64,000 bases of DNA from Spiroplasma phoeniceum (GTDB lineage: Bacteria; Bacillota_I; Bacilli_A; Mycoplasmatales; Mycoplasmataceae). This document shows, one piece after another, positions 1,492-22,792 of the stretch; within the stretch, counting starts at the first letter, position 1, and each line of letters opens with the position of its first letter. The notes beneath the pieces are model-generated. The model searched no databases. It saw only the letters and a list, made by a program, of their open reading frames with translations, and was not told the origin of the DNA. The stretch lies in assembly GCA_026239495.1 (NCBI GenBank), contig CP110830.1:496001-560000 (forward strand), read 5' to 3'. Made by a program: the position numbers and the translations under genes.

Positions 1492-4323
1492 ATGAATAAA
1501 AATATGATACCTAAAAATATTAAGGCATCTAAATTTCATTTTTGAAGAGGAATTAGTTGAATAGATGTTATCATTGCAGTACTAGTAATTGGTTTTATTT
1601 CTTTAATGGTTTGAGGATTACCATCTTTGTCAACTGCTGGAAAAATTATTATATCAATGATTGCTGTTATGTTAACATTGCCATTAATGTTTCATTGATT
1701 ACCTGGTTTAAAAGGATGGCATGTTTTATTTTTAATGTTTAAATATGTTTTTATGCACAAAAAGTATAAAGAGAACACTGCAAATGACACATTAGGATTA
1801 ATTCCATATGAAAAATTAGTTGATAATGCAATTCAAACAAAACTCTTAGACAAAAAAATAAACTGAATAATAGGAATTAAATTAAAAGGATTCAATTTTT
1901 ATCAATTATCATTAGAAAAACAATTAGTTTTAATTGAAGACTTACAAACTGCTTTAAAGGGATTAGATTTTCCAATTCAAATGATGGCAATTAATCGACC
2001 ATCTGAATTCAAAGAACAAATTGTTTATTTAAATTCTGTTTTGGATAAATTAAAACAGCAAAGGAAAAACAACAAAATAACATTAAAAATATTTAATGCA
2101 AAGAAATATCAGATTTTAAAACAAATTAAAATTCTTAAGAATGATGTTAACGGAGAAAATAATATTTTATTTAATAAAGAATTTTATGTTTATGGAATTA
2201 TTTCAAAAAAAGAAAATATTGAGTTAACTCAAGAAATTATGATAAATGAATTATCTCGAGTAGGTTTTGAAATTAAGCCATTAAATCGTTATGAACTTGT
2301 CAATTCATTAATATGAAGATTAAATCCAATTGCTGATGTAATTGACAATGAGACAATTGATTCATACGAAGATAATATTGCAGAGTTAATTGCTCATAAA
2401 ACATTAAATATTATGTCTCGAAATTTAAAAGTAGATGATTTATATTTATCTGTTAATGGAATCTTAGATTATCCATTGTGAGTTAGAAATACTTGAGGTG
2501 CTGATATTGTTAGAAATGAACAAGTATTTATTTGAAATATTAATCATCAATTTAATTCAAAAGTTCGTAGGAGTTTAGTTAAAGCTAGTCAAAACGCAAG
2601 AGCTAATTTATATGGAACAAAAGACGATATATCTAGAACTGAAATTGAATATGAAATAGAAAGTTATCAAAACCTAATTGATAGTTTATATGGAAATGCA
2701 GAAACATTAAAAGGTGTAGAAATTTTAGCAATTTCATACGCTGATAATTTAAAAGATTTGGGTCTAATAAAAAACCAGTTATCAAGATCATTAAAAACAA
2801 TTGATATTAAAGACAATCCATTGATGTATCGTCAGAAAGATGCTTTAATTGATATTTGACCACAACATTATCGGCCATTAAATTATCAATTATCTAGATT
2901 GATACCAACATATACATTAGCTTCATCTTTTCCTTTTATTAGTGGGGGGTTAAGTGATGAAAATGGTATGTATTTTGGTAAAGATGTAAATAATGAAACA
3001 ATTATTTTTAATCAGTTTTTTAAAGATAAAAATCGAACAAGTTTTAGTATTTTTATTGCCGGAGAACCAGGAAAAGGTAAAACATGAACTACTAAAAAGT
3101 TAATAAATTTTCATGCCTCAATAGGTAATAAAGTTGTTATTGTTGATGTTGAACGTGAATACAAAAAAGAATGTGACTATCATGGGGGAGAATGAATTAA
3201 TTTAGGCGTTGATGGAATTAATCCACTTCAAATATTTAATAATGAATTAGGAGATGATTCTGAAACAGAGATTGATGCTGCACCATTATCAACACATTTA
3301 TCAATTTTTAAACAATGATTTAAAATTTTATATAAAGAATTAAATGAAAAAGAAGAACGAGTTTTATTAAGAGAAGTACAAAAAACTTATCAAAGATTTA
3401 ATTTGTCTAATACCACTGATTTTGATAAATTAAAAACTACAGATTTTCCAACAATGTCAGATTTATATGATACTATAGTTGAAACATCAAAACATAATTT
3501 AGATTCAATATTACAAAACCTAAAAGAAATAATTGAATATGATTTTTTAAATGATGGAAGATATACAAAAATGTTTAATCGACATACATCCATTAAATTA
3601 GATAATGATTTTATTGTATTAGATATTCATTCATTATATGACGAGGGAGTCCCGGAAAAATTAACAGCTCAATTATATTTAACTTTAGGAGTTATTAAAG
3701 GAGTAGTTAAGCAAAATCGAATTGATAAGTTAGAAAGAAACTTATTAATTGTTATTGATGAGGCTCATACTTGTGTTGATGCTAAAAACCCAGCAGCATT
3801 AGATTTTATGTTCCAAATGGTTAAACGTGGTCGTAAATATAGAACAGGTTTAATCATTACTACGCAAAACTGAAGTGATATGACTGGAAACGGAGATCCA
3901 GAAATATTTAAAAAAGTTAGTGCATTATTAAGAGATTGCCAAGTTAAAATTTTAATGCCAATGGATCCTGATGATGTTGCAGGTGCTGAAGAAGCTTATG
4001 CAACTGCTGGTGGTTTTACGGATGCTTTAAAAAGTTTTTTAACTCATGCTGAACAAGGGGATATGGTAATGTTTTTAACAAAAAATAACTTTATTTGTTT
4101 ACATCGAGAAGTTACAGATGATGAAGTTATTGCGTTTGACAATAAAGGATTTATTATGCCGCAAGAACCTAAACGTAAATATAAGAAAAAAGAAATAAAA
4201 GAAATTATTAGTGATGAAATGATAGAAGATAAACCATTAACTGGTAAAGATCATATGGATTATGATGATTCATGAATAATGAATTATGATCCAAGCAAAC
4301 GTCCAAATTTAACAAATAAATAA
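1492..4323 (+). CDS. VirB4/TraE-family type IV secretion ATPase
   Basis: A 943-residue protein, the energising ATPase of a type IV secretion or conjugation apparatus, acting on the inner face of the membrane. The N-terminus has two hydrophobic segments (about 24-43 and 51-70) before the soluble part. This resembles a PrgI/VirB3-like membrane module fused to VirB4, as in Gram-positive and mollicute systems. Walker A is GEPGKGKT at about residues 524-531 and Walker B is LLIVIDEAH with D756/E757. The C-terminal RecA-like domain has the typical VirB4 text MVKRGRKYRTGLIITTQN. The frame crosses many TGA Trp codons. ATG 1492 is chosen because the hairpin cassette with GAGG lies just upstream. The coupling protein partner is at 17334-19484. 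Confidence 0.9.
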
Positions 4324-4480: not shown

Positions 4481-4510
4481 CTTTCGGATAGGATGCCTAT
4501 GCGAAAGGAG
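4481..4510 (+). promoter_or_regulatory. Hairpin-RBS cassette 2 (canonical copy)
   Basis: CTTTCG (4481-4486) and CGAAAG (4502-4507) close a hairpin with an inner ATAGG/CCTAT stem, a single G/G mismatch and an ATG loop. CGAAAGGAG contains the ribosome site for the ATG at 4520. It sits less than 20 nt after the terminator T tract, which leaves no room for a normal promoter. Confidence 0.7.
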
Positions 4511-4591: not shown

Positions 4592-5734
4592 CTTTAATTT
4601 TGTCGAAAACTCTTGATATTTATAGAATATAACTAATTTTAGGTATATTTTTAATATATAGAGGTAAATAATTGATGGAAAAAATAATTACAGAATTAAA
4701 AAACAGTTTTACAGATGATCAATTTTTAGAATTTTATGAAAAAATAAAAAAAGAAGTAAAGGTAATCAAAAAACAAAAACGTTTAAATGAAATTGATCAA
4801 AAATTTAGAGATAAAGGCATTACATGTCCTAATTGCAAATCTTTTCATTGTGTTAAAAATGGTCATAATCCTGAAGGAAAACAAAAATATTTATGTAAAA
4901 AATGTCGTGATAGTTTTGATGCTTTTCGTCATCATTTTACTTATTGAAGTCATTTAAATTATGAACAATGAAATTTATTAATTCAAATTTCATTATTAGG
5001 ACAATCTAGCAAAATAATTTCTCGTTTTATTAAAACAACCCCAAAAAATGCTTGGTATAATCGACAAAAATTAATGCAATCAAAACAATTAGAAAATACC
5101 CAATTAAAATTTAAAAAATTAAATGGTCAAATTCAAATGGATGAAACATTTATTAAAGAAATCCATAAAGGTAATTTTAAAGATAAATTTGATAAACGAA
5201 AAACTCATCTCGATCCATTTTCAACCAATACCAAATGCTGTATTCAAATGGCAGTTGATAGCAATAATAATATTTTTGTTCAATCTACCAATACCAAACG
5301 ATTACAAAAACAATGAATTATTGAAAATATGAATAAGCAATTGATTAAAGAAAAATCAACGATTATTTCTGACATGCAACCACTATATTTATTAGTAGCA
5401 AAACAAACAAATTCTACTCTATATTCCACCAAAACTAGTACAAACCCTGATACTAGTTATCGAAAGTTAAATAAGATTAATAAATTACAATCCAGTCTTA
5501 AAGAAGCCTTAATTCATTATCATGGTTTGGGTTTCACTAATATTCAAAATTATTTAAAGCTCTGAAAATGAAAATACCAACATAAAGGTTTAACACCAAA
5601 CCAACAATCAACGGTATTATATTTTAACGTTTAAAAAATTTAAAACAAAATCATAATCTTACACAAAATTAGTTTTTAAATTGTCATATTGATGATTTTT
5701 TTTATTTCATCAAGAGTTTTCGACAAAATTAAAG
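4592..5734 (+). mobile_element. IS1595-type insertion sequence, copy 1
   Basis: A 1143-bp element with near-perfect terminal inverted repeats of about 26 bp, starting CTTTAATTTTGTCG. It is flanked by the 8-bp direct repeat AATTTCAT (4584-4591 and 5735-5742), a length typical of IS1595 elements. It carries one transposase gene. Copy 2, in the opposite orientation at 10386-11528, has exactly the same length. Confidence 0.85.
4675..5634 (+). CDS. IS1595-type transposase
   Basis: 319 residues from ATG 4675 (GAGG upstream; a TTG three bases earlier is also possible). The N-terminal part holds a zinc ribbon, CPNCKSFHCVKNG then LCKKC. A DDE-like domain starts at MDETFIKEIHKG and continues through IQMAVDSNNNIFVQ. 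The zinc ribbon plus an ISXO2-like core is the architecture of IS1595 transposases. Three TGA codons are read as Trp. The gene appears intact, so the element may be active. Confidence 0.8.
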
Positions 5735-6702: not shown

Positions 6703-6738
6703 CTTTCGGATAGGATACCTTTGCGAAAGGAAAAAAAG
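6703..6738 (+). promoter_or_regulatory. Hairpin-RBS cassette 3
   Basis: CTTTCG (6703-6708) pairs with CGAAAG (6724-6729), with a shorter AGG/CCT inner stem. It is preceded by TATGTGCTTTTT and followed by GGAAAA and ATG 6743. Confidence 0.65.
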
Positions 6739-7161: not shown

Positions 7162-7178
7162 ATGTGCTTTTTCTTTGT

Positions 7179-7213
7179 TTTCGGATAGGATATTTCTATG
7201 AAAGTGAGGATTA
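7179..7213 (+). promoter_or_regulatory. Hairpin-RBS cassette 4
   Basis: TTTC (7179-7182) pairs with GAAA (7200-7203), enclosing ATAG/CTAT. GTGAGGA follows as ribosome site and ATG is at 7217. It is a weaker copy of the same element, again just after a terminator. Confidence 0.6.
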
Positions 7214-7216
7214 AAT

Positions 7217-10104
7217 ATGAAATGATTATTATTGTTTATATCAAGCAGCACATTATTAACAACACCAACTTTGCCACTATCAACAACCAATTTAATTACT
7301 TTATATAGTACTATACGTGGTGCACCATTTTACCCAAATGTAAATATTAATCCCGGTGTAAACTTGGAAGTTTATAAGGGAACAAACTCATGATGAAAAA
7401 CTTTAAGTGATAATAAAAACAAAGAATATATATTTGATTATTTATCTTATACTAAAGATAAACAGACATTTTTAAAATATTATAAATCAATTACTCTTGA
7501 TTTTGGTGCTCTTTCTAGTTCATCTGGCTTTAATCGAAGTCAAGATTATAATGGTCCTGTTACAATAAACCTTCAAAGTAGTGATTTTACTTACACATTT
7601 TTTAATTGGTCACAAAAAGGTGCTCAAAATCAGGCATCTAATAATGCTACTGTAGATATTACTTGATTATATAATAAATTATATTTTAATTTCAAAGTTA
7701 ATTGTTGGATGTATCAGGGAGGCAATTCGTCATGAACTGATACTACTAGTAAATTACAAGTTTCTAAAATAATTTTAAATTCTAACCAGAATTTAAATGC
7801 AATAAAAAATAATTTAACTAATGCATTATCTAATACAATTAACTTAGTTAGTGATTATTCAGGAAGTTTAATTGATAAACGAAACATAATTGATCCAACT
7901 GGAAAAGGGAATGACGAAACTACATTGCTGAATTCTGCAATTTCAAAAGTATTGAGTAATGAATATAATGATTGAAAACAATACATTCAGCCATTTTCTT
8001 TTAGTGATGATACTAGAAAAGCAACAACGACTATAAAGTTTAATGATACAGTTACTAGTCAGCAACAAGTTTGAACTTTTAATACCCCTATTAATATTAC
8101 TTTATCACAGAATTATTGAGGTAAAAGTTTAAATGAACGAATGCATTTATTACCTGGACAAATTGTAAATCCTGATGATTCTACAAAAGGAATGATTATT
8201 GATACACCAGATATATTAGATCGTCCAGATCCAAGTAAAAACTATGGTGGAACTTTAAGATATCATACAACTGCAAGTATTGAATTTGATAGTTTATTAA
8301 ATAATACGGAATGATTAGAAATTAATGGAACTAAAATTGATGTTTTATATAACAAATTTAGTGCGACATTATTAGACAATCGTGTATCAGGAGAAAAAAA
8401 CAATACATATGATATTATTGCATATCACAAGGATGACAAATATAAAGCACAATATGAAATAAAAGTAGTTATTGAAACATTAGTACCAGATTTAAAGTTA
8501 AAATGATATGCATGAGATCCTGACAAAAATCCAGAGCAAAATATTTTAATAACACCTAATTTGCCAGATGGAAAGCCAAATCCAAAATATGACAAGGAAA
8601 TTAATGCTGATACTGGGACAAAAACACAAATTATTTGAGTAAAAAATAAATCATTAGTTCCATTCGCATTAGATCCTTTAGATAAAAATGGAAATGTTAT
8701 TGATCCAAATAAAAATCCTGAAGAATATGATTTAGGTTTTATTGCTGAGGGTGCTTTTGCTGGTAAAGGAGTAAATCAAACCTTTAATGATTCAAATATT
8801 TTATCAGTTTATCGTCAAGGAGTTCAAAATACTTTGGAACCTTTTAACAATCCAAATGATAGACAAAAAAAGACCCAAATCACTTCTGACAGCGATACAC
8901 AATATTGATCTGATAGTGGAATTTGACATTATATTGAAAATTTATCTGATAAATCTTCAGCCCAAAAATTTATGATTATTGGTGCTGATTATTCAAATCA
9001 ATATCCACGATTCTTAGATATATTAAATAATTCAAATATTGCAGTTGACTTTTGAACTACAATTCATGGTGTGCACTTAAAGAATTATTTAGCAACATAT
9101 AAGGGATTTGATTCAGCTAAAATTGGAGATTTAAGTTACGAACAAGTTGCAGCATATTGAAAGGAATATACTTCTGATGTTATTTCGCAAAGAATTCCTC
9201 CAGATCCAACACCTGCAAATTATACTGATATAACTGGGAATATTCCTATTATTAAAATGAATGAAACTGATTTAGACGCAATAGTTTCGAATATTTTAGT
9301 AGATGTAGATAAATATATAACTTCTAAATCTCCAAATGCTAAAATAAAATCTGATTATAATATTTATTCTCCAGATGGTAAAGATATTACTATTGATAAT
9401 TCTGGATTATCAAGTTTATTACAGGATCAAATTAATCCACAATATTTAGGTTTAATAGTTAAATCATCTTCAACCTCAACTCTATTAATAGGAACTGCTA
9501 GAGTCCAAGTAAGAAATTCTTCGACGTATGATCCTACAAATGTTAGAGATTTAAGTAAAATTAAATTTGAAAATTATAAATATAATTTTGCAGATTTTAC
9601 ACCAGAACAATTAAGAACTTGAATTTATAAAGATGTTGATAATTATATGAACACATATGGTTATAATGATATGACTTTAAATGAAGATTATGGAATTTCA
9701 GGAAATAGAATTCCAGATGAAGATCCTATTACTCATCATAATACTCCAGGAGATTTGAATGATTTATTACTAAAAGATTTCTTAGATAATTCAACTGGTG
9801 TTAAAACTTTGACCATCATTGTGTTTATGGTGATGATGCTAGTGATAAAACAACGGGTTATTCATATCAAACTTTAATTAATGATCCAAATGCTAAACCA
9901 GTTCCTCCAGATCCGCCAATACCGCCAGATCCTAATCCAAAACCAGATAATAATTTTGTAAAAAGGAATCTATGATGAATTATTACATTAGTTGTTGGTT
10001 TATTAGCAATAGGAGGCATTATTATATCAATAATACTAATTCGAAGAAAAAAATCATTAGGTAAAAGTAAAACAAAAAGAAAAGGAGCAAAAGTAGTAAA
10101 ATAA
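7217..10104 (+). pseudogene. Spiroplasma adhesin-like (ARP-type) surface protein, one frameshift
   Basis: About 961 residues if restored. The N-terminus is a signal peptide (MKWLLLFISSSTLLTTPTLP). A long extracellular part of polar, beta-rich sequence follows, then a proline-rich linker (PPDPPIPPDPNPKP), one membrane helix (WWIITLVVGLLAIGGIIISI) and a short basic tail (RRKKSLGKSKTKRKGAKVVK). This matches the layout of plasmid-encoded spiroplasma adhesion-related proteins. The frame changes at about 9813 (GTTAAAACTTTGACC), so the anchor is out of frame with the body. This could be a true null or phase-off state, or a sequence error. ATG 7217 follows hairpin cassette 4. The assignment is by architecture, not by sequence identity. 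Confidence 0.7.
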
Positions 10105-10117
10105 ATACTACTTTTTT
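10089..10117 (+). terminator. Intrinsic terminator of adhesin-like gene
   Basis: AAAAGTAGTA (10089-10098), 7-nt loop, TACTACTTTT (10106-10115), then TT. The stem overlaps the last codons and the stop. Confidence 0.75.
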
Positions 10118-10138
10118 ACATATTTTATTGTGTAACAG

Positions 10139-10311
10139 AACTCGGCTTTCCGAGTTGCTGAGAAAGGGTTAATTTTATCCCTATCAAAAACGTATGAAAA
10201 TAAGGATTTTTGATATCAAAAGGGGATAAAATTAACCCTTTCAAGAACGGACATGACCCCAATAAAAAGCTAAATTTTATCTATGCTTTTTAATGTGTAT
10301 GGGGTCTGTCC
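10139..10311 (+). repeat. Cluster of three palindromes, possible recombination, nicking or replication site
   Basis: Three stem-loops follow one another in a gene-free 270-bp stretch. (a) AACTCGG (10139-10145) with CCGAGTT (10150-10156). (b) A perfect 20-bp arm at 10162-10181 matching 10223-10242, with a second inner stem ATCAAAAA (10183-10190) / TTTTTGAT (10207-10214). (c) GGACATGACCCC (10249-10260) with GGGGTCTGTCC (10301-10311) and inner AAAAAGC/GCTTTTT. No T tract makes it a simple terminator. On a T4SS-bearing island it could be an oriT, a single-strand origin or an attachment site; this is inference. Confidence 0.6.
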
Positions 10312-10385
10312 TTATCCTGTTTATAGAGTATAGGGGATATTTATAGAGTAAATAATTATTTAAAATTCTAGATTTTAAAGATTAT

Positions 10386-11528
10386 CTTTAATTTTGTCGA
10401 AAACTCTTGATGAAATAAAAAAAATCATCAATATGACAATTTAAAAACTAATTTTGTGTAAGATTATGATTTTGTTTTAAATTTTTTAAACGTTAAAATA
10501 TAATACCGTTGATTGTTGGTTTGGTGTTAAACCTTTATGTTGGTATTTTCATTTTCAGAGCTTTAAATAATTTTGAATATTAGTGAAACCCAAACCATGA
10601 TAATGAATTAAGGCTTCTTTAAGACTGGATTGTAATTTATTAATCTTATTTAACTTTCGATAACTAGTATCAGGGTTTGTACTAGTTTTGGTGGAATATA
10701 GAGTAGAATTTGTTTGTTTTGCTACTAATAAATATAGTGGTTGCATGTCAGAAATAATCGTTGATTTTTCTTTAATCAATTGCTTATTCATATTTTCAAT
10801 AATTCATTGTTTTTGTAATCGTTTGGTATTGGTAGATTGAACAAAAATATTATTATTGCTATCAACTGCCATTTGAATACAGCATTTGGTATTGGTTGAA
10901 AATGGATCGAGATGAGTTTTTCGTTTATCAAATTTATCTTTAAAATTACCTTTATGGATTTCTTTAATAAATGTTTCATCCATTTGAATTTGACCATTTA
11001 ATTTTTTAAATTTTAATTGGGTATTTTCTAATTGTTTTGATTGCATTAATTTTTGTCGATTATACCAAGCAGTTTTTTGGGTTGTTTTAATAAAACGAGA
11101 AATTATTTTGCTAGATTGTCCTAATAATGCAATTTGAATTAATAAATTTCATTGTTCATAATTTAAATGACTTCAATAAGTAAAATGATGACGAAAAGCA
11201 TCAAAACTAGCACGACATTTTTTACATAAATATTTTTGTTTTCCTTCAGGATTATGACCATTTTTAACACAATGAAAAGATTTGCAATTAGGACATGTAA
11301 TGCCTTTATCTCTAAATTTTTGATCAATTTCATTTAAACGTTTTTGTTTTTTGATTACCTTTACTTCTTTTTTTATTTTTTCATAAAATTCTAAAAATTG
11401 ATCATCTGTAAAACTGTTTTTTAATTCTGTAATTATTTTTTCCATCAATTATTTACCTCTATATATTAAAAATATACCTAAAATTAGGTATATTCTATAA
11501 ATATCAAGAGTTTTCGACAAAATTAAAG
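10386..11528 (-). mobile_element. IS1595-type insertion sequence, copy 2 (inverted)
   Basis: 1143 bp, the same length and ends as copy 1 but in opposite orientation. It is flanked by its own 8-bp repeat AAGATTAT (10378-10385 and 11529-11536). It lies just upstream of the SIR2 gene and of a TATAAT-like box (about 11543), so it may affect expression of the defence genes. Confidence 0.85.
10486..11445 (-). CDS. IS1595-type transposase (copy 2)
   Basis: 319 residues, start ATG 11445, nearly identical to the copy at 4675-5634. I see only a few substitutions, for example KKCRASFDAF instead of KKCRDSFDAF in the zinc-ribbon region. The zinc ribbon and the MDETFIKEIHKG core are intact. Near-identity of the two copies indicates recent transposition. 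Confidence 0.8.
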
Positions 11529-11595
11529 AAGATTATTAAGTTTATAATAATTCTAAGATATAAAATAATTATTAATAATAGAATGGGATAAACTT

Positions 11596-12897
11596 ATGGG
11601 TAAACAATACAATGATATACAAATTAAAAATATGCTTGAATTATCTGTTGATGTATGTAATATTAATATTTTAATTGGATCAGGTTTCTCAATGCCTACT
11701 TTTCCAAATATGGAGCAAGTTCAAACTTTGATAAAATTATTATTACAATATTTTTTAGATTCAAATATTTTAAATACCTTAGAAGACACAGATGATTTAA
11801 AAAAACTTAATAATTTTCTTGAAGTCAACAAAATTAATGAATTATTTTTAAATTTAAAAGAGAAGATTAATTATTCTAATTGAGATTCAAAAAAAATTAA
11901 TGAACTTATTGTATCATTAGAAGACAAAAATATGAATTTTGAAAATCTTTTATATAAAGATCATTTAAATAACTATTTAAATAATGATAAAGATAAAACT
12001 GGAATTAGGGAGTATAATTTATCATTTTTATTTGTAAATCTTTTTTTTTGAATTGTATTTAATTTTAAGAAATGATTTAAAATATAAAAAAAATATTGAA
12101 AAATTTAAATCTTTGTTTGTATGAATTTTAAATAAACATTTATTAAATTCTAAACGAAGTTTAAAAAATACAATTAATGTGTTTACTACAAATTATGATA
12201 CTTTTATTGAAGAAGCATTAGAAAATTTAAAACAGTTTTACTACAATGGATTTCATGGAACAATCAATAAAACGTTTTCTCCAGAATATTATAATTATAA
12301 ATACTTTGATGATATGAATTTAAATAAAAACTTTTATCAAGAAAAAAATCACTATTTAATTTGTATAAATTGCATGGATCCATTACATGAAACTATAATG
12401 AAGAAAAAGAAAAACTAGAAGAAATTGGTATTCAATCTTCTATAAATTTTTTAAAAAGATCAAATTATCCGCATATAATATACCCTTCAACTGAAAAATA
12501 TTCAATGTCTTTAAATTATGAGCATTATTATGAACTTCAAACAAAATTTAAAGAATGTTTAAATAAAAAAGACAGTTGTCTCTTAGTTATAGGATTTTCA
12601 TTAAAAGATAATCATATATGAAAAGTAATTAATGAAGCACTATCAAATGGTAATTTAATAGTATTTATTTTTAGTTCAGACAACATTTTAGATGAAAATA
12701 ATATGATATTAGAGGAAAAAGTTAAAGAAAAATTTAGAGATAATCTCCTTAACATTAATGGTATTAATTTTGTATGCTTTGAAAATTATAATTATGAAGA
12801 ATATTTTATGAAAAGTGCAAATTATGAATTTGAACAAGGATTTGAAAATAAAACTAATATTATTAATGTTAAAAATGAGGTAATAGATAATGATTAA
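11596..12897 (+). pseudogene. SIR2-family NAD-binding defence protein, two homopolymer frameshifts
   Basis: First gene of a SIR2-HerA pair. Three SIR2 hallmarks are visible: ILIGSGFS (residues 25-32, NAD-binding), VFTTNYD (12179-12199), and LYKLHGSITW (12361-12390), in the right order. The frame changes twice: at a T9 run (12041-12049), where T8 would be in frame, and at an A7 run near 12342-12348, where A8 would be in frame. The two shifts compensate, giving 433 residues if restored. The C-terminal third (LLVIGFSLKDNHIW) is typical of SIR2-like defence effectors, which deplete NAD on infection. The stop overlaps the herA start by 8 bp, so the two are translationally coupled. Either the effector is dead or the runs are sequencing errors. 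Confidence 0.75.
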
Positions 12898-14707
12898 TAT
12901 AGGGAGAGTAGTGTCTGTTTTCTTAAATAAAGTTCAAATTGAAGTTTATAATGATTTAATTGATGGAATTATAGTTCAAGATAATAAATTACATAATATT
13001 TTATCTGTTGGAGGTTATTGTAAAATTTATAATAATAATGAATTTTTAATTGTACATATTATTAATGAGACAGCTAACTTTTTACAAAATACAGATATAT
13101 CAAAAAAAATTAAAGATAATTATTATAAAGTTATAGAAGGAAAAATTATAGGAAGTATAAAAAAAGAAAATGGTATTTTTGAATTTGGAATTTCAAAAAT
13201 GCCAAATATATTTTCAAGTGTTTTTTCACTTTCAAATGGTGAATTAATAAAAATTCTTAACAGTCAATCAAAAAATAATGTTTTACAAAAATTTGGAACA
13301 TTTTTACAGGATTCGGATGTTAATTTTCATTTAGATGTAAATGATTTTTTGAAATTTCATTCAGCTATTTTTGGTATAACAGGGAGTGGAAAGTCAAATA
13401 CAATTGGTAAAGTTTTGGAAACAATTAGTTTAGTTGAAAAAAATAAACAATATAAAAGAACTGAATTTTTAAAAATTATTCTTTTTGATATTACGGGTGA
13501 ATATAAAATTATTTTAGAAAAAAATTTAGGCGAAAAAAAATTATTATCAGGTTTATCAATAAATGAATATAAGATTCCAATTGATCAACTTAATTATAAA
13601 GACTGATCATTTTTACTATTTGCATCCCCAAAAACTCAAGAGCCATTTTTAAAAAGTTTAGATTCAAGTTTTAAAAAAATAAACAATTGAATTGAATTTC
13701 AGTCTACAATAGTTAGAACTATATTTTATACAATGAAAGATTTTGCTAATATGTCAAGATCTGCTACTGAACAAGATCATAAATTAAAAGTCATTAGAGA
13801 TGGTTTAAAAGATATTGTTTCAAAGAAATCTGTTTTTTATTCATATTTTCAAAATATTGCTGGTTTTTTTAATGAATTAACTTTGGACTTTGGTAAACCA
13901 TTATATAAGGGGAGTCAACTTACAAATGTTGAATCAACTATTATTAATGATATTAAAAATATACAATTAAACATTAAAAAAACTTTTTTTAAGAATTTTG
14001 AAATTTTTAATATTTTATTTAAATTATTTGAAATTCGATATCAGATGTTTGGAGGCAATATGTTTAATAATATTAAATCTTTAATTCAAAGATATGAACG
14101 TTTTAATGATGAATTGTCATCTATTTTTATGAATAATTTAAAAGAAAAAAATTTAATTAACTTCGTATTTGATTCAGAAAATACTTTAATTAATATTTTT
14201 GATTTATCAAATGTAAACTTTTATATTACAACAGGAATGGCAGGTTTAATAACCTCTAAACTATATAATCAGAAAAAGGAAAAAAAGAATGGTAAATTAA
14301 TTTTATTTTTTGATGAGGCACATAAATATATGGATTCATATAATTCTGATGATTATGAAAATAATACGGAAGAATTATTTAATGAAATTTCAAAAGAAGG
14401 TCGAAAATTTGGAGTTTCATTGATAATTGCTAGTCAAAAACCAAGCGATATTTCTGAAACATTGTTATCACAATGTAGTAATTTTATAATTCATAAAATT
14501 ACTAGCCATACAGATATTAATAAAATAAGTAAAGTTATTTCTTATTTAGATGAGCAAAGTTTAGAAATACTTTCATATTTAAAACCAGGATGTGCAGTAT
14601 TTGCTGGTAGATTTCAAGAATTACCTCAAATCGTAAAAATTCAACAGCCATCAAAAGAATTTGAACCAGATAGTCACATTGATGACATATATTCTTTAGA
14701 AATATAA
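12890..14707 (+). CDS. herA: HerA-family ATPase (SIR2-HerA defence partner)
   Basis: 605 residues, ATG 12890. An N-terminal HAS-barrel-like beta domain (about 1-110) is followed by the DUF87/HerA ATPase core. Walker A is GITGSGKS at residues 162-169 and Walker B is LILFFDEAHKY with D475/E476. The text FGVSLIIASQKPSDISETLLSQCSNFIIHKI is the usual HerA C-terminal core, split here only by description. In SIR2-HerA antiphage systems the hexameric HerA ATPase/translocase assembles with SIR2 and controls its NADase activity. Direct overlap with the SIR2 gene supports that pairing. The gene is intact, with several TGA Trp codons. Confidence 0.85.
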
Positions 14708-17300: not shown

Positions 17301-17333
17301 TTTTCGGATAGGATGCCTATACGAAAGGATTAG
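17301..17333 (+). promoter_or_regulatory. Hairpin-RBS cassette 5 (before virD4-like gene)
   Basis: TTTTCG (17301-17306) pairs with CGAAAG (17322-17327), with the inner ATAGG/CCTAT stem intact. AAAGGA is the ribosome site, 4-5 nt before ATG 17334. Confidence 0.65.
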
Positions 17334-19484
17334 ATGACAATATGAAAAGTTGATTTGAAAAAAAACAAATTATTTTTAATAGTATATTTAGTTTTATTAC
17401 CAATAATAATATTTTTAGGTTTATTATTTTGTGGTATAATTAATAGTTTACTAAAGTTGCATAAATTAAATATTAAAATTGCTTTAAATTATATTTATTT
17501 AAATAACAACTTATTGTATTTATATTTAGGAATTGGAATAGTAATTTTATTTACTTTTTTCTATTGAACAAAAATAATAACAAAATCAAAAAGTAAATAT
17601 TCAGAAGATGTAAATGATAAAACATTTGGTAAAGCAAGATTTTTAACTAAAAAAGAATTTAATAAAAAATATAAATTAGTGAAATTTAAAAATGGTGGTA
17701 AGCATACTGGGATAGTAATTAATTCTTTTGAAAAAATTAAAGGTGTTTTTAAAAAAATAAAAGAAATTTATTGTAATGTTGCAACTGATAAGCATGTTGT
17801 AACTATTGCAACATCAGTAGATGGAAAATCACAAGGTCATGTTATTCCAACACTGCAATTATTTGCGAATTCAAAAACAAAACCATCTTTATTTATCGCT
17901 GATGTAAAAGGGGAATTATATGAATCATCTTCAAAACATTTAGCAGAAAATGGATATAATGTTATTATTTTAAACTTAAAAGAGGGAGATGAATCAATAT
18001 ATTGGAATCCATTGCAACTTGCTTTTGAAAATTGGAAAAAGGGTTGTGAATTAGAAATAAAATATAATGATACAAGTATAAAAGATAAAACAAAAGAAAT
18101 TAAGTCATATTACAAGTATCAAGAAGAAGCAAAAAAATATATTTCTGATATATGTAGTACACTTGTACCAATCAATGATGATAAAGGAAAATATTTTGAT
18201 GAATCAGCACGTGATTTAGCAAATGGGATTTTATTATCAATGTTATACAAAATGAGAAGTGATAATATTTTTGATGAGAATCGATTTAACTTAGCCTCAA
18301 TTTTACCAATCATTAATAACATAGAAAAATTAAAAAACTATTTATCAGCATTACCTTTGACACATCCAGCTCGAAATATGGCAGGATCAATAATTGATAA
18401 CGCTAAAGAAACAACAGGTTCAATTTTGGGAACTTTAAAAACAGCTTTAAGTATATTTAATGATTCATTGATAAAAAATATTACATCAAGAAATGAAATT
18501 GATTTTAATAAAATAGTCAAAGAGGCAACTGCTATTTTTGCAGTAGTATCACATCAATCAATTGATAAACATAAATTTGCATCAATGTTTATTTCACAAG
18601 TTTATAAGTATTTGTCAAATTATGCTGAAAAAAATGGTGGTAAGTTAAAAAAATCATTTTATTTTATCTTAGATGAGTTTGCGAATTATCCTAAAATAGA
18701 TAATATGATGCAAAAAGTTTCAGTATCACGTGGTGCAGGAATTTTTTGAGATTTAATTCTTCAAGATATTCCACAGTTGGAATCAAAATATGGGAAAGAA
18801 GATGCAAGAACTATTTTAAACAATTGTCATGTTCATTTATTTATAGGAACAGAAGATGATATAACTGCCGAACGTTATTCTAAACGTGCAGGTACAACAA
18901 CTAAACTAATTAAAAATTATTCATCAAATGTTAGTGATAATCATATAAACAAAAAAACTAGTAATTTTAATTTCTTTGGCTCATCTAAAACAACATATAA
19001 GCCAAATAGCACAGGAGCAAGTATTCAAAAAGTTGATTTAATTCCGCCAGGTGATTTATTAGTAGTCCCTTTAGAACAAGGAATATTATTTTCACACAAA
19101 GATTATGCATATAAAGTTAAATTATTACCAATGTGAAAAACTGATGAATGGCAAAAAGGTTCAATTGATATTATTCCAAGAGTTCCTTTATCAGAAGAAG
19201 AATTTGAAAAAAATCATTTTAGTAATTTATTAGAAATAAATCAAAATAATTTTACTTATGATAATAATCTTGTTAATAATGAATCCTTTGATAAAAAAGA
19301 AATTAGAATTAAGAAAAAAGAACCGGTTGTTAGTCTAGATATTCTAATAGAGAGAAAAGAAGATATTCAAGATAAATTATCTTTTTTACAACAGGATGAA
19401 AAAATTTATTCGGATGTTCAAGAAGAAATAAAGAAATTAAGAGCTGAATTATCAGAATTAAATATTCGAATTAAATCATTTTAA
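17334..19484 (+). CDS. VirD4/TraG-family type IV coupling protein
   Basis: 716 residues. ATG 17334 was chosen because AAAGGA of the hairpin cassette lies just upstream; a TGA soon after is read as Trp. Two N-terminal membrane helices (about 13-36 and 58-76) precede a cytoplasmic ATPase. Walker A is atypical, ATSVDGKS (A159-S166), fitting [AG]x4GK[ST]. The family text IADVKGELYE follows, and Walker B is FYFILDEFANYPKI (D447/E448). The C-terminus (about 640-716) is charged and coiled-coil-like. Coupling proteins feed DNA-protein substrates into the secretion channel; the VirB4-like partner is at 1492-4323. Many internal TGA codons. Confidence 0.88.
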
Positions 19485-19993: not shown

Positions 19994-20027
19994 CTTTCGG
20001 ATAGGATGCCTATGTGAAAGGAGAGAT
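19994..20027 (+). promoter_or_regulatory. Hairpin-RBS cassette 7
   Basis: CTTTCG (19994-19999) pairs with TGAAAG (20015-20020), where a G-U pair replaces G-C. The inner ATAGG/CCTAT stem and ATG loop are intact. GAAAGGAGAG serves ATG 20031. Confidence 0.65.
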
Positions 20028-21382: not shown

Positions 21383-22792
21383 ATGAATATTATTAATAAA
21401 CTTGGTAGTATCAACCCATATCAATTTTTTTCTGACATTAATGAGCAATTAATTAAAGATGGACTTATTGAAATTAAAAATCATTTATTAAAACGTGATA
21501 AGGAAATTTTTCTTAGTGATGAAACTAGAAAATTAGGTTTTAAGCCAAAAGGTTTTAAAAAAAGATGTTTTATTACGTTACTTGGAGATATTCAGATTAA
21601 AATTAGACGTTACAAATTTTGAGATGCAAGTGCATATAATAATAAAACAAAAAATTATGGAAAATGACGATTTAAATGTCTTTTATTAGAAGATTTAAAA
21701 TTTGAAAAATATCAAAAAATTACACATGACTTAAAAGAATTAATATTAACTAATGTAGCAGATAGGAAAATAATTAAAGATATTAATGATATGATTCCAG
21801 TTAAAAGTCTTTCGTACTCTTCAATAGCTAGATTAATTAATAAATTAGATCTTAATTTAGAAAATGCAAGTAATAATTTTAGCAATAAAACATCATCAAA
21901 ATATATTTATATTGTTCTAGATGATACTTTTTTAAATTTAAAAGAGAAAAATAAGAAGAAGAAATTTCGAATTCGGACAGCATTTTTTCATCAAGGTCAT
22001 ATGTCAGAAGATGAAAGAGTTGGAAATTCAATTTTGTTAAATAAAAAAGCTTATTGTAAATTGTTAAGAACTGCTACAAATATTAATACATTAGAATATA
22101 GTGAAGAACTTTTCAAAGAAATATCAAAATATTATAATATTACACCTGAGACTCAATTTATTGTATGTGGAGATGGTGCTGATTGGATAAAAAATACTTC
22201 TCATTTTTTAAATGCAAAATATGTTTTAGATAAGTTTCATGCAATTAGAAAAATTGGAACAGTATTTAACTTAAAAAGTAAGTATGATAAATTACAATTT
22301 AAAATTTGTAAAGGTCTTTTTAACAATGGAGAATATAAAAAATTAATCACTCATTTAGAATACTTTAAAAATAAACCAGATTTAATTACTAAACAAAATA
22401 ATTTATTAAATGTAATTAAATATTTAAAAAAACGCAAAGATGGTATTATTGCGTATAAACACGATTGATGTTTAAGCGCATGTGCGGAAGCATTAATATC
22501 ACATACAATAAAAGCACAATTAGGTTATGGAAACAAGATCTATTCATATAATTCATTTAGGAATATTTTAGCCTTACGTGTAGCAAAAATTAATGGATTA
22601 AACTTAGTTAAAGAAATGTTTAAAGAACAGCTTGAAAATAAAGATATTTCATTAGAAAATATGAAAATGGCTAAGTGAAATAATGATGCTAATAATTCAT
22701 TATATGAACCTAAAAAAGGAGGTATGCCTGTAATGGAATATCATACTACTGGAATTAGTAAAGCATTAAAAGAAATAACAGCAGTAAGATAG
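21383..22792 (+). CDS. UPF0236/ISLre2-type transposase
   Basis: 469 residues, full-length for this group. Recognisable stretches are IYIVLDDTFLNLKEK, IVCGDGADWIKNTSHFLNA and YVLDKFHAIRKI, which carry the conserved Asp residues of this transposase-like family, also known from mycoplasma integrative elements. The frame contains several TGA Trp codons and is unbroken. A TATAAT box (about 21341) lies 40 bp before the ATG. I could not find terminal inverted repeats, so the element borders are open. It marks the right limit of the island. Confidence 0.75.

Follow-up and report, generated by a model that had tools for sequence, protein, structure and literature searches.

We propose that positions 10136-10350 of the window – the whole 64,000-nt stretch of DNA analysed here, C1:496001-560000 of the 2.18-Mb Spiroplasma phoeniceum genome (G000) – constitute the origin of transfer (oriT) of an integrative conjugative element (ICE) of the mycoplasma/Spiroplasma type, and that this site is nicked by the relaxase of the same element; judged from sequence comparison, this reading has a probability of roughly 0.87. 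The deciding feature is an RP4-like layout, in which an inverted repeat is separated by eight nucleotides from the cut in the MOBP consensus YATCCTG/Y. The reading gains further support because a fitting relaxase is encoded on the same ICE, because the same anatomy occurs in other elements, and because the stems covary. The first-pass annotation had offered three options for these hairpins, i.e. an oriT, a single-strand origin or a recombination site; it is the oriT that is supported, and we rate the other two as rivals. The parts of the proposed site and the hairpin next to it are:

about 10088-10117, plus strand: terminator-like hairpin of the upstream Mbov_0399-family gene, with a T run, seen in the sequence and the fold
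10136-10160, plus strand: stem 1 of the proposed oriT, CAGAACTCGG / CCGAGTTGCTG, with one bulge
10162-10242, plus strand: stem 2, an inner stem enclosed by 20-bp arms (10162-10181 and 10223-10242) that pair perfectly
10249-10311, plus strand: stem 3, the proposed relaxase-binding inverted repeat, seen in the fold, with an inner A/T stem
10312-10319, plus strand: spacer and nick core TTATCCTG, matching the MOBP consensus, predicted cut 10319/10320
10320-10330 and 10340-10350, plus strand: two 11-bp direct repeats TTTATAGAGTA, possible accessory-protein sites

Three palindromes in tandem, the middle one with a perfect 20-bp arm and an inner stem, had been described from a first look at the sequence, together with their location in a gene-free gap and their lack of a terminator T tract. 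All of these descriptions were borne out: the hairpins fill positions 10136-10311, the upstream frame ends at about 10103, the next listed ORF lies on the minus strand at 10486-11448, and a scan of 9700-10700 for terminator-like sites found none. The hairpin at about 10088-10117 is absent from the list of that scan; it sits before the array and marks the left limit of the site. The array was considered as an intrinsic terminator, and this was rejected because there is no T tract and the upstream gene has a separate hairpin. The 211-nt segment 10120-10330 folds with -46.9 kcal/mol under DNA parameters, compared with a mean of -15.7 for shuffled sequences (z -9.77), and none of 200 shuffles folded as well. 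At the gathering score, Rfam matches no family in the window. The array is present as a single copy in the 2.18-Mb genome, where a second strong match comes from the self-complementary half of the array itself; with no copies elsewhere in the genome, the candidate of an IS end was rejected as well, and the structure did not turn out to be a remnant of a known IS end, the outcome that would have spoken against the first-pass view.

The first-pass annotation was silent on the eight bases after stem 3 and on the 11-bp direct repeats. Stem 3 ends at 10311 and is followed by TTATCCTG (10312-10319) and then by T, which places the predicted nick 8 nt from the stem; when the arm is defined by best energy, the distance is 7 nt at this site and 7-10 nt over nine sites of the same kind. 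The MOBP nick core (C/T)ATCCTG(C/T) is present as TATCCTGT at 10313-10320. Three such motifs occur in the window, and only this one is associated with a hairpin. According to the accessible text of one study, the MOBP consensus is (C/T)ATCCTG(C/T) with a proximal inverted repeat, and the same two-part search for core and inverted repeat was used earlier in H. pylori (PMC3772185). In the available part of another (PMC4814116), the proximal arm is given as eight nucleotides from nic, the RP4 substrate reads ACTTCACCTATCCTG/CCCGGC, and the repeat is described as refolding into a hairpin for rejoining.

The genes of the surrounding island that are relevant here are listed below:

1492-4323, plus strand: VirB4 (Mbov_0397 family) of the same ICE, 700 bits against a cut-off of 590
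7175-10103, plus strand: Mbov_0399-family ICE protein gene by family match, frame broken near the 3' end
11596-12897, plus strand: SIR2-type defence gene, split over three ORFs, family matches to the third ORF only
12890-14707, plus strand: HerA-type helicase, partner of the SIR2 gene, over the Pfam cut-off and under the cut-offs of the NCBIfam anti-phage models
14831-16099, plus strand: C5-cytosine DNA methyltransferase, over the cut-off
17334-19484, plus strand: VirD4 coupling protein, PF02534 over the cut-off, CD1115 family 245 bits, just under 250
21383-22792, plus strand: Mbov_0401-family ICE transposase, 251 bits against a cut-off of 162

On the strength of its gene content, we assign the island to the ICEs of the mycoplasma type: the Mbov_0396, Mbov_0397 (VirB4), Mbov_0399 and Mbov_0401 families occur together (4 of 4), all above their NCBIfam cut-offs, and the match to the Mbov_0395 pilin stays below its cut-off. 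The element also encodes a DnaG-like primase. Read along the plus strand, the left part runs from primase, relaxase and pilin through Mbov_0396, VirB4 and Mbov_0399 to the three hairpins; behind them follow an IS1595-like copy, the SIR2 pieces, HerA, the C5-methyltransferase, a 369-aa protein without an assigned family, VirD4 and the transposase. In the Mbov_0399-family gene, the ORF stops at 9877 and the C-terminal part continues in another frame (to about 10103). This frame change (9800-10103) and the division of the SIR2 gene over three ORFs suggest that the ICE may be partly decayed, or that the assembly may contain errors. A search for inverted ends gave no terminal repeats of the ICE. 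The window contains two IS1595-like copies, one at 4672-5634 and one next to the hairpins, at about 10383-11529 (right end). The latter starts about 70 bp to the right of the array and has matching ends and an 8-bp duplication, AAGATTAT; its insertion thus separated the SIR2 gene from the proposed oriT. A different hairpin of 27 nt, TTTCGGATAGGATGCCTATGCGAAAGG, occurs in four plus-strand copies in the window (4482-4508, 6704-6730, 17302-17328 and 19995-20021) and in six more, also on the plus strand, in the 20 kb to the left (L039 9874, 10322, 11816, 13287, 14886 and 16400), when up to 3 mismatches are allowed and 0 copies are expected. A stricter pattern has seven matches in the whole genome, all within C1:485874-502730. 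These hairpins precede ICE genes, including those for primase, relaxase and VirD4, and their 3' arm holds a GAAAGG that resembles a ribosome site; to judge by these features, the hairpin looks like a shared translational leader of ICE genes.

The first-pass annotation had noted VirB4- and VirD4-like proteins without a relaxase. There is indeed none among the window proteins scanned, but the gene lies just outside, about 5.4 kb left of the window start (G000:C1:489298-490641, 447 aa) and about 15.5 kb from the proposed oriT, so that the relaxase had seemed to be missing only because of where the window begins. The protein scores 70.6 bits against PF18555 MobL (cut-off 28.5) and 108 bits against NCBIfam MobP3, below the curated cut-off of 150; for PF03432 it reached 25.3 bits in one scan (over the cut-off) and 22.8 in another (under it). 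When 10 genomes were searched in six frames with PF18555, G000 was not among the matches, even though the protein, once translated, exceeds the cut-off of this model. From these matches, the protein appears to be a MobP/MobL-type relaxase, a member of the MOBP superfamily on the same element. Tyr46, His165, His172 and His174 are invariant across seven aligned relaxases; by analogy with the accessible description of a characterised relaxase (PMC5313138), they are probably the residues expected for the relaxase reaction. Related relaxases of other ICEs are 24-33% identical. In S. phoeniceum P40, a broken reading of a MobV-type relaxase is found beside VirB4 and VirD4 pieces (L025:4266-5448; 49 bits, below the cut-off of 100), i.e. 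a different relaxase family in a neighbouring ICE.

Copies of the array were sought in 60 genomes of the family. It is nearly whole in S. phoeniceum P40 (G020, 93%) and partial in G026, in both cases on the chromosome. The G020 copy lies after the end of the same Mbov_0399-type gene and before a C5-methyltransferase and an HNH-type gene. In G026, the copy is located in an ICE remnant and has the core TATCCTA. About 0.7 kb ahead of this copy there is what remains of the end of that gene, separated from it by a minus-strand ORF; behind the copy come a 236-aa protein without matched family and an adenine methyltransferase. Stem 1 is nearly invariant among the three copies. Stem 2 of G026 is only a short GAAAGGG/CCCTTTC hairpin, compared with the 81-nt stem in the window; the larger form appears to have arisen from such a short one through inverted duplication of the loop, the kind of product expected from template switching on single strands. 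The search of spiroplasma plasmids for the same structure, as first suggested, yielded no array in the plasmid collection (weak, short matches in 66 records, all below 80% coverage; that collection may exclude records close to the genome of the window), yet the array is present in the chromosomes of the two related genomes. The phage collection gave short weak matches only. The exact array pattern was found in three contigs of the genome contig collection, one from Spiroplasma (phoeniceum) and two unrelated, and in none of the viral contigs. Behind the Mbov_0399 genes of other ICEs there are simple hairpins only, and the counterpart sites of these elements are located elsewhere.

These counterparts became visible around the relaxase genes. 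The relaxase protein matched 14 places in 10 of the 60 genomes, and the surroundings of all 14, together with G020 and G026a, whose array copies lack such a relaxase match, gave 16 regions. A site was counted as hairpin-associated when a hairpin of -12 kcal/mol or lower, folded within a limit of 110 nt, had an arm ending 1-4 nt before the hexamer. At equal settings, this holds for 9 of 126 Y[AT]TCCTGY sites and for 15 of 1060 control sites, drawn from 22 control hexamers (p 4.3e-4; two further control matches overlapped true sites). For the exact YATCCTGY the figures are 8/53 and the same 15/1060 (p 4.4e-6). Another control draw, which was folded at coarser steps than the sites and thereby favours the oriT reading, gave 9/727, and an earlier version of the test gave 7/110 versus 18/2768 (p 2.7e-5). 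A crude ungapped stem scan of 841 TCCTG sites missed the site in the window; its four best hits are real sites. The nine hairpin sites lie in G000, G020, G014 (two), G026b, G023x, G023z, G034a and G042a, and they are not independent: the two of G014, G026b, G023z and a homologous site in G023y, which reads TATACTG, make up one family, G034a and G042a another, and G000 and G020 a third. The sites differ in repeat sequence, and at least four families can be distinguished. In the other ICEs they adjoin the VirD4, VirB4 or relaxase gene. One ICE has two copies of the site in opposite orientation, which flank VirB4 (G014:C1:1002536 on the plus strand and 1007968 on the minus strand).

Altogether, the site is present in 8 of the 14 regions chosen by relaxase. 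No such site was found in the remaining six, of which G034b has matches to VirB4, VirD4 and Mbov_0396, and G045, G042b, G040, G028 and G057 show only fragments of other T4SS genes, or none, within the stretch examined. As for covariation, stem 3 of the window trio varies with its pairing kept (three pairs changed on both sides, matched by 16 of 500 shuffles). In a set of five sites, none of 500 shuffles attains the observed ten cells with a change on either side of the pair; two less clear measures for the same set, five pairs with double change and further pair types, were reached by 73 and 443 of 500 shuffles. With three or five related sequences, such shuffle controls carry little weight. 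A covariance model built from five other sites in four ICEs recovered the G034a site, which was not a member, with E 2.4e-4 in the 60 genomes searched. It also proposed new inverted repeats with CTTATCCTGC or ATATCCTGC in G022, G045 and G054; a further match, in G014, is degraded. The repeat in G022 has CTTATCCTGC and lies about 0.3 kb before a VirB4 gene, the degraded match has VirD4 and Mbov_0399 pieces beside it, and near the matches at G045:C2:784816 and G054:C1:161963 there is no VirB4, VirD4 or relaxase match.

A contrast set was chosen by VirB4. Among 248 genomes of the order, 108 have a VirB4 match; 20 of these regions were hand-picked (10 from family f7, 6 from f5 and 4 from the genus of the window) and scanned with a fold limit of 90 nt. 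None of their 30 YATCCTGY sites has a hairpin (best -7.3), compared with 3 of 673 controls. Set against the 8/53 in the regions chosen by relaxase, 0/30 corresponds to p 0.046. In 16 of the 20 regions, no relaxase of this type was found within the stretch. The other four (G233, G229, G201 and G195) possess a divergent MobP-type relaxase, yet are without the site: hairpins near these genes do not combine an inverted repeat with YATCCTGY. The divergent relaxases (L172-L173, L178-L179, L182-L183 and L188-L189) lie near VirD4 in mycoplasma-type ICEs, with tblastn E values of 1e-8 to 1e-16, and may correspond to the relaxase left unnamed in the accessible part of a study of ICEA (PMC6030558). Because of the results in this contrast set, the site seems to go with this relaxase group in Spiroplasma and, as far as seen, not with the divergent relaxases of mycoplasmas.

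For binding, nicking, strand polarity and rejoining, we infer the following course. The MobP/MobL-type relaxase of the element would bind stem 3 and cut the plus strand after TTATCCTG, between 10319 and 10320. It would remain on the 5' end, which starts TTTATAGAG, and be handed to the VirD4/VirB4 channel. Entry would then begin with the SIR2/HerA, methyltransferase and VirD4 genes and end with those for the relaxase and VirB4. At the end of the strand, stem 3 could refold in single-stranded form next to the TTATCCTG-3'OH, and the relaxase would rejoin the circle. Stems 1 and 2 and the direct repeats might serve the binding of accessory proteins and the start of the second strand; these roles are guesses. 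The order of entry is attractive because methylation and defence genes would enter early, and the first cargo genes behind the array are indeed defence or methylation genes in both the window and G020. One could go further and regard the array as a composite module at the start of a leading region, in which the nick site, the single-strand hairpins and the direct repeats switch on these genes upon entry. Plasmid leading regions are known for early-entry expression, and if true, the module would be their mollicute counterpart. We consider this extension rather unlikely; in other ICEs VirB4 or the relaxase is the next gene, which speaks against its generality and means that early entry of defence genes is no rule.

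The same position before defence or methylation genes, in the window and in G020, could be explained by a 5' leader RNA, i.e. a set of regulatory hairpins for the genes behind and not a transfer site, and RNA pairing would account equally well for the covariation. Such a leader leaves unexplained why a nick motif stands at a fixed distance and why the same anatomy precedes a VirB4 or relaxase gene in other ICEs, and no Rfam family matches in the window; we hold it to be very improbable. Slightly less credit still goes to a single-strand or replication origin of the circular form of the ICE. The large stems 1 and 2 and the direct repeats do resemble replication start regions, and the ICE has its DnaG-like primase gene, but the 8-nt step to YATCCTG/Y is the layout of a relaxase site with the nick outside the hairpin, and rolling-circle Rep proteins, according to the available text of PMC4814116, cut within the loop. 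A replication role may, however, coexist with the oriT.

A recombination or attachment site for swapping defence cargo would fit the three copies of the array, which have the end of an Mbov_0399-type gene on one side and, on the other, cargo genes that differ from copy to copy. The sites of the other ICEs adjoin VirD4, VirB4 or relaxase genes instead of cargo borders, and the element encodes a DDE transposase, with no site-specific recombinase noted among the scanned proteins; hence the chances of this reading are slimmer again. Finally, the IS1595-like copy starting about 70 bp to the right might suggest that the stems are a remnant of an IS end, if not of a terminator or simply due to chance. 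With a fold z of -9.8, a single copy and no T tract in the array, an IS that has its own ends and 8-bp duplication, and 93% conservation of the site in G020, we regard such an origin as scarcely conceivable.

The oriT reading can be compared with several known systems. With the MOBP-type oriT of RP4 and of H. pylori tfs4, as far as the accessible text of PMC3772185 goes, the site shares the proximal inverted repeat, the 8-nt step and the Y-flanked ATCCTG core, and it is likewise intergenic on an element with relaxase and T4SS. It differs by a MobL/MobP2-P3-like relaxase, by its distance of 15.5 kb from the relaxase gene, by two extra large hairpins upstream, and by 11-bp direct repeats that start at the nick. 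With the pLS20 oriT, the prototype of MOBL (PMC5313138), the site shares a relaxase that matches Pfam MobL and a nick, here a predicted one, that flanks an inverted repeat; however, the nick reported for pLS20 follows GAATCGGGGGCCGG, whereas the site in the window reads GTCCTTATCCTG and is not pLS20-like. Since this characterised MobL relaxase cuts a different sequence, membership in the Pfam MobL family does not predict an ATCCTG nick.

Within Spiroplasma, an IncP-like oriT has been proposed for pSKU146 of S. kunkelii, and an inverted-repeat region (IRR) is described for the pSci plasmids of S. citri (accessible parts of PMC1318496 and PMC2386487); these are earlier proposals of an IncP-like oriT or of hairpin clusters as transfer signals. 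Unlike the site in the window, both TATCCTG motifs of pSKU146 lie inside annotated genes, and the inverted-repeat pairs listed, 25 of 48, include no long one next to these motifs. For the pSci plasmids, the available text of PMC2386487 reports no relaxase. ICEA of Mycoplasma agalactiae is the same kind of ICE, with VirB4, VirD4 and a DDE transposase, and the hairpin noted there as a possible oriT has a motif unrelated in sequence to ours (accessible part of PMC6030558). In the same part, this genetic study of 2018 raises the oriT only as a question, without a proven oriT or a named relaxase gene, and the accessible part of a review of 2025 on mycoplasma ICEs lists VirB4, VirD4, VirB6-like and VirB3-like parts but no relaxase or oriT (PMC12857230). 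In the literature covered, which mostly excludes subscription papers, we found no report of a mollicute ICE for which both an oriT and its relaxase are described.

By conjugation, mollicutes transfer ICEs as well as large portions of their chromosomes. The element described here combines a relaxase gene with a putative nick site, and other Spiroplasma ICEs show this combination too. It supplies a short and exact candidate DNA substrate, stem 3 with TTATCCTGTTTATAG, as well as a search rule for passengers that may be mobilisable by these elements: an inverted repeat, eight nucleotides and YATCCTGY.
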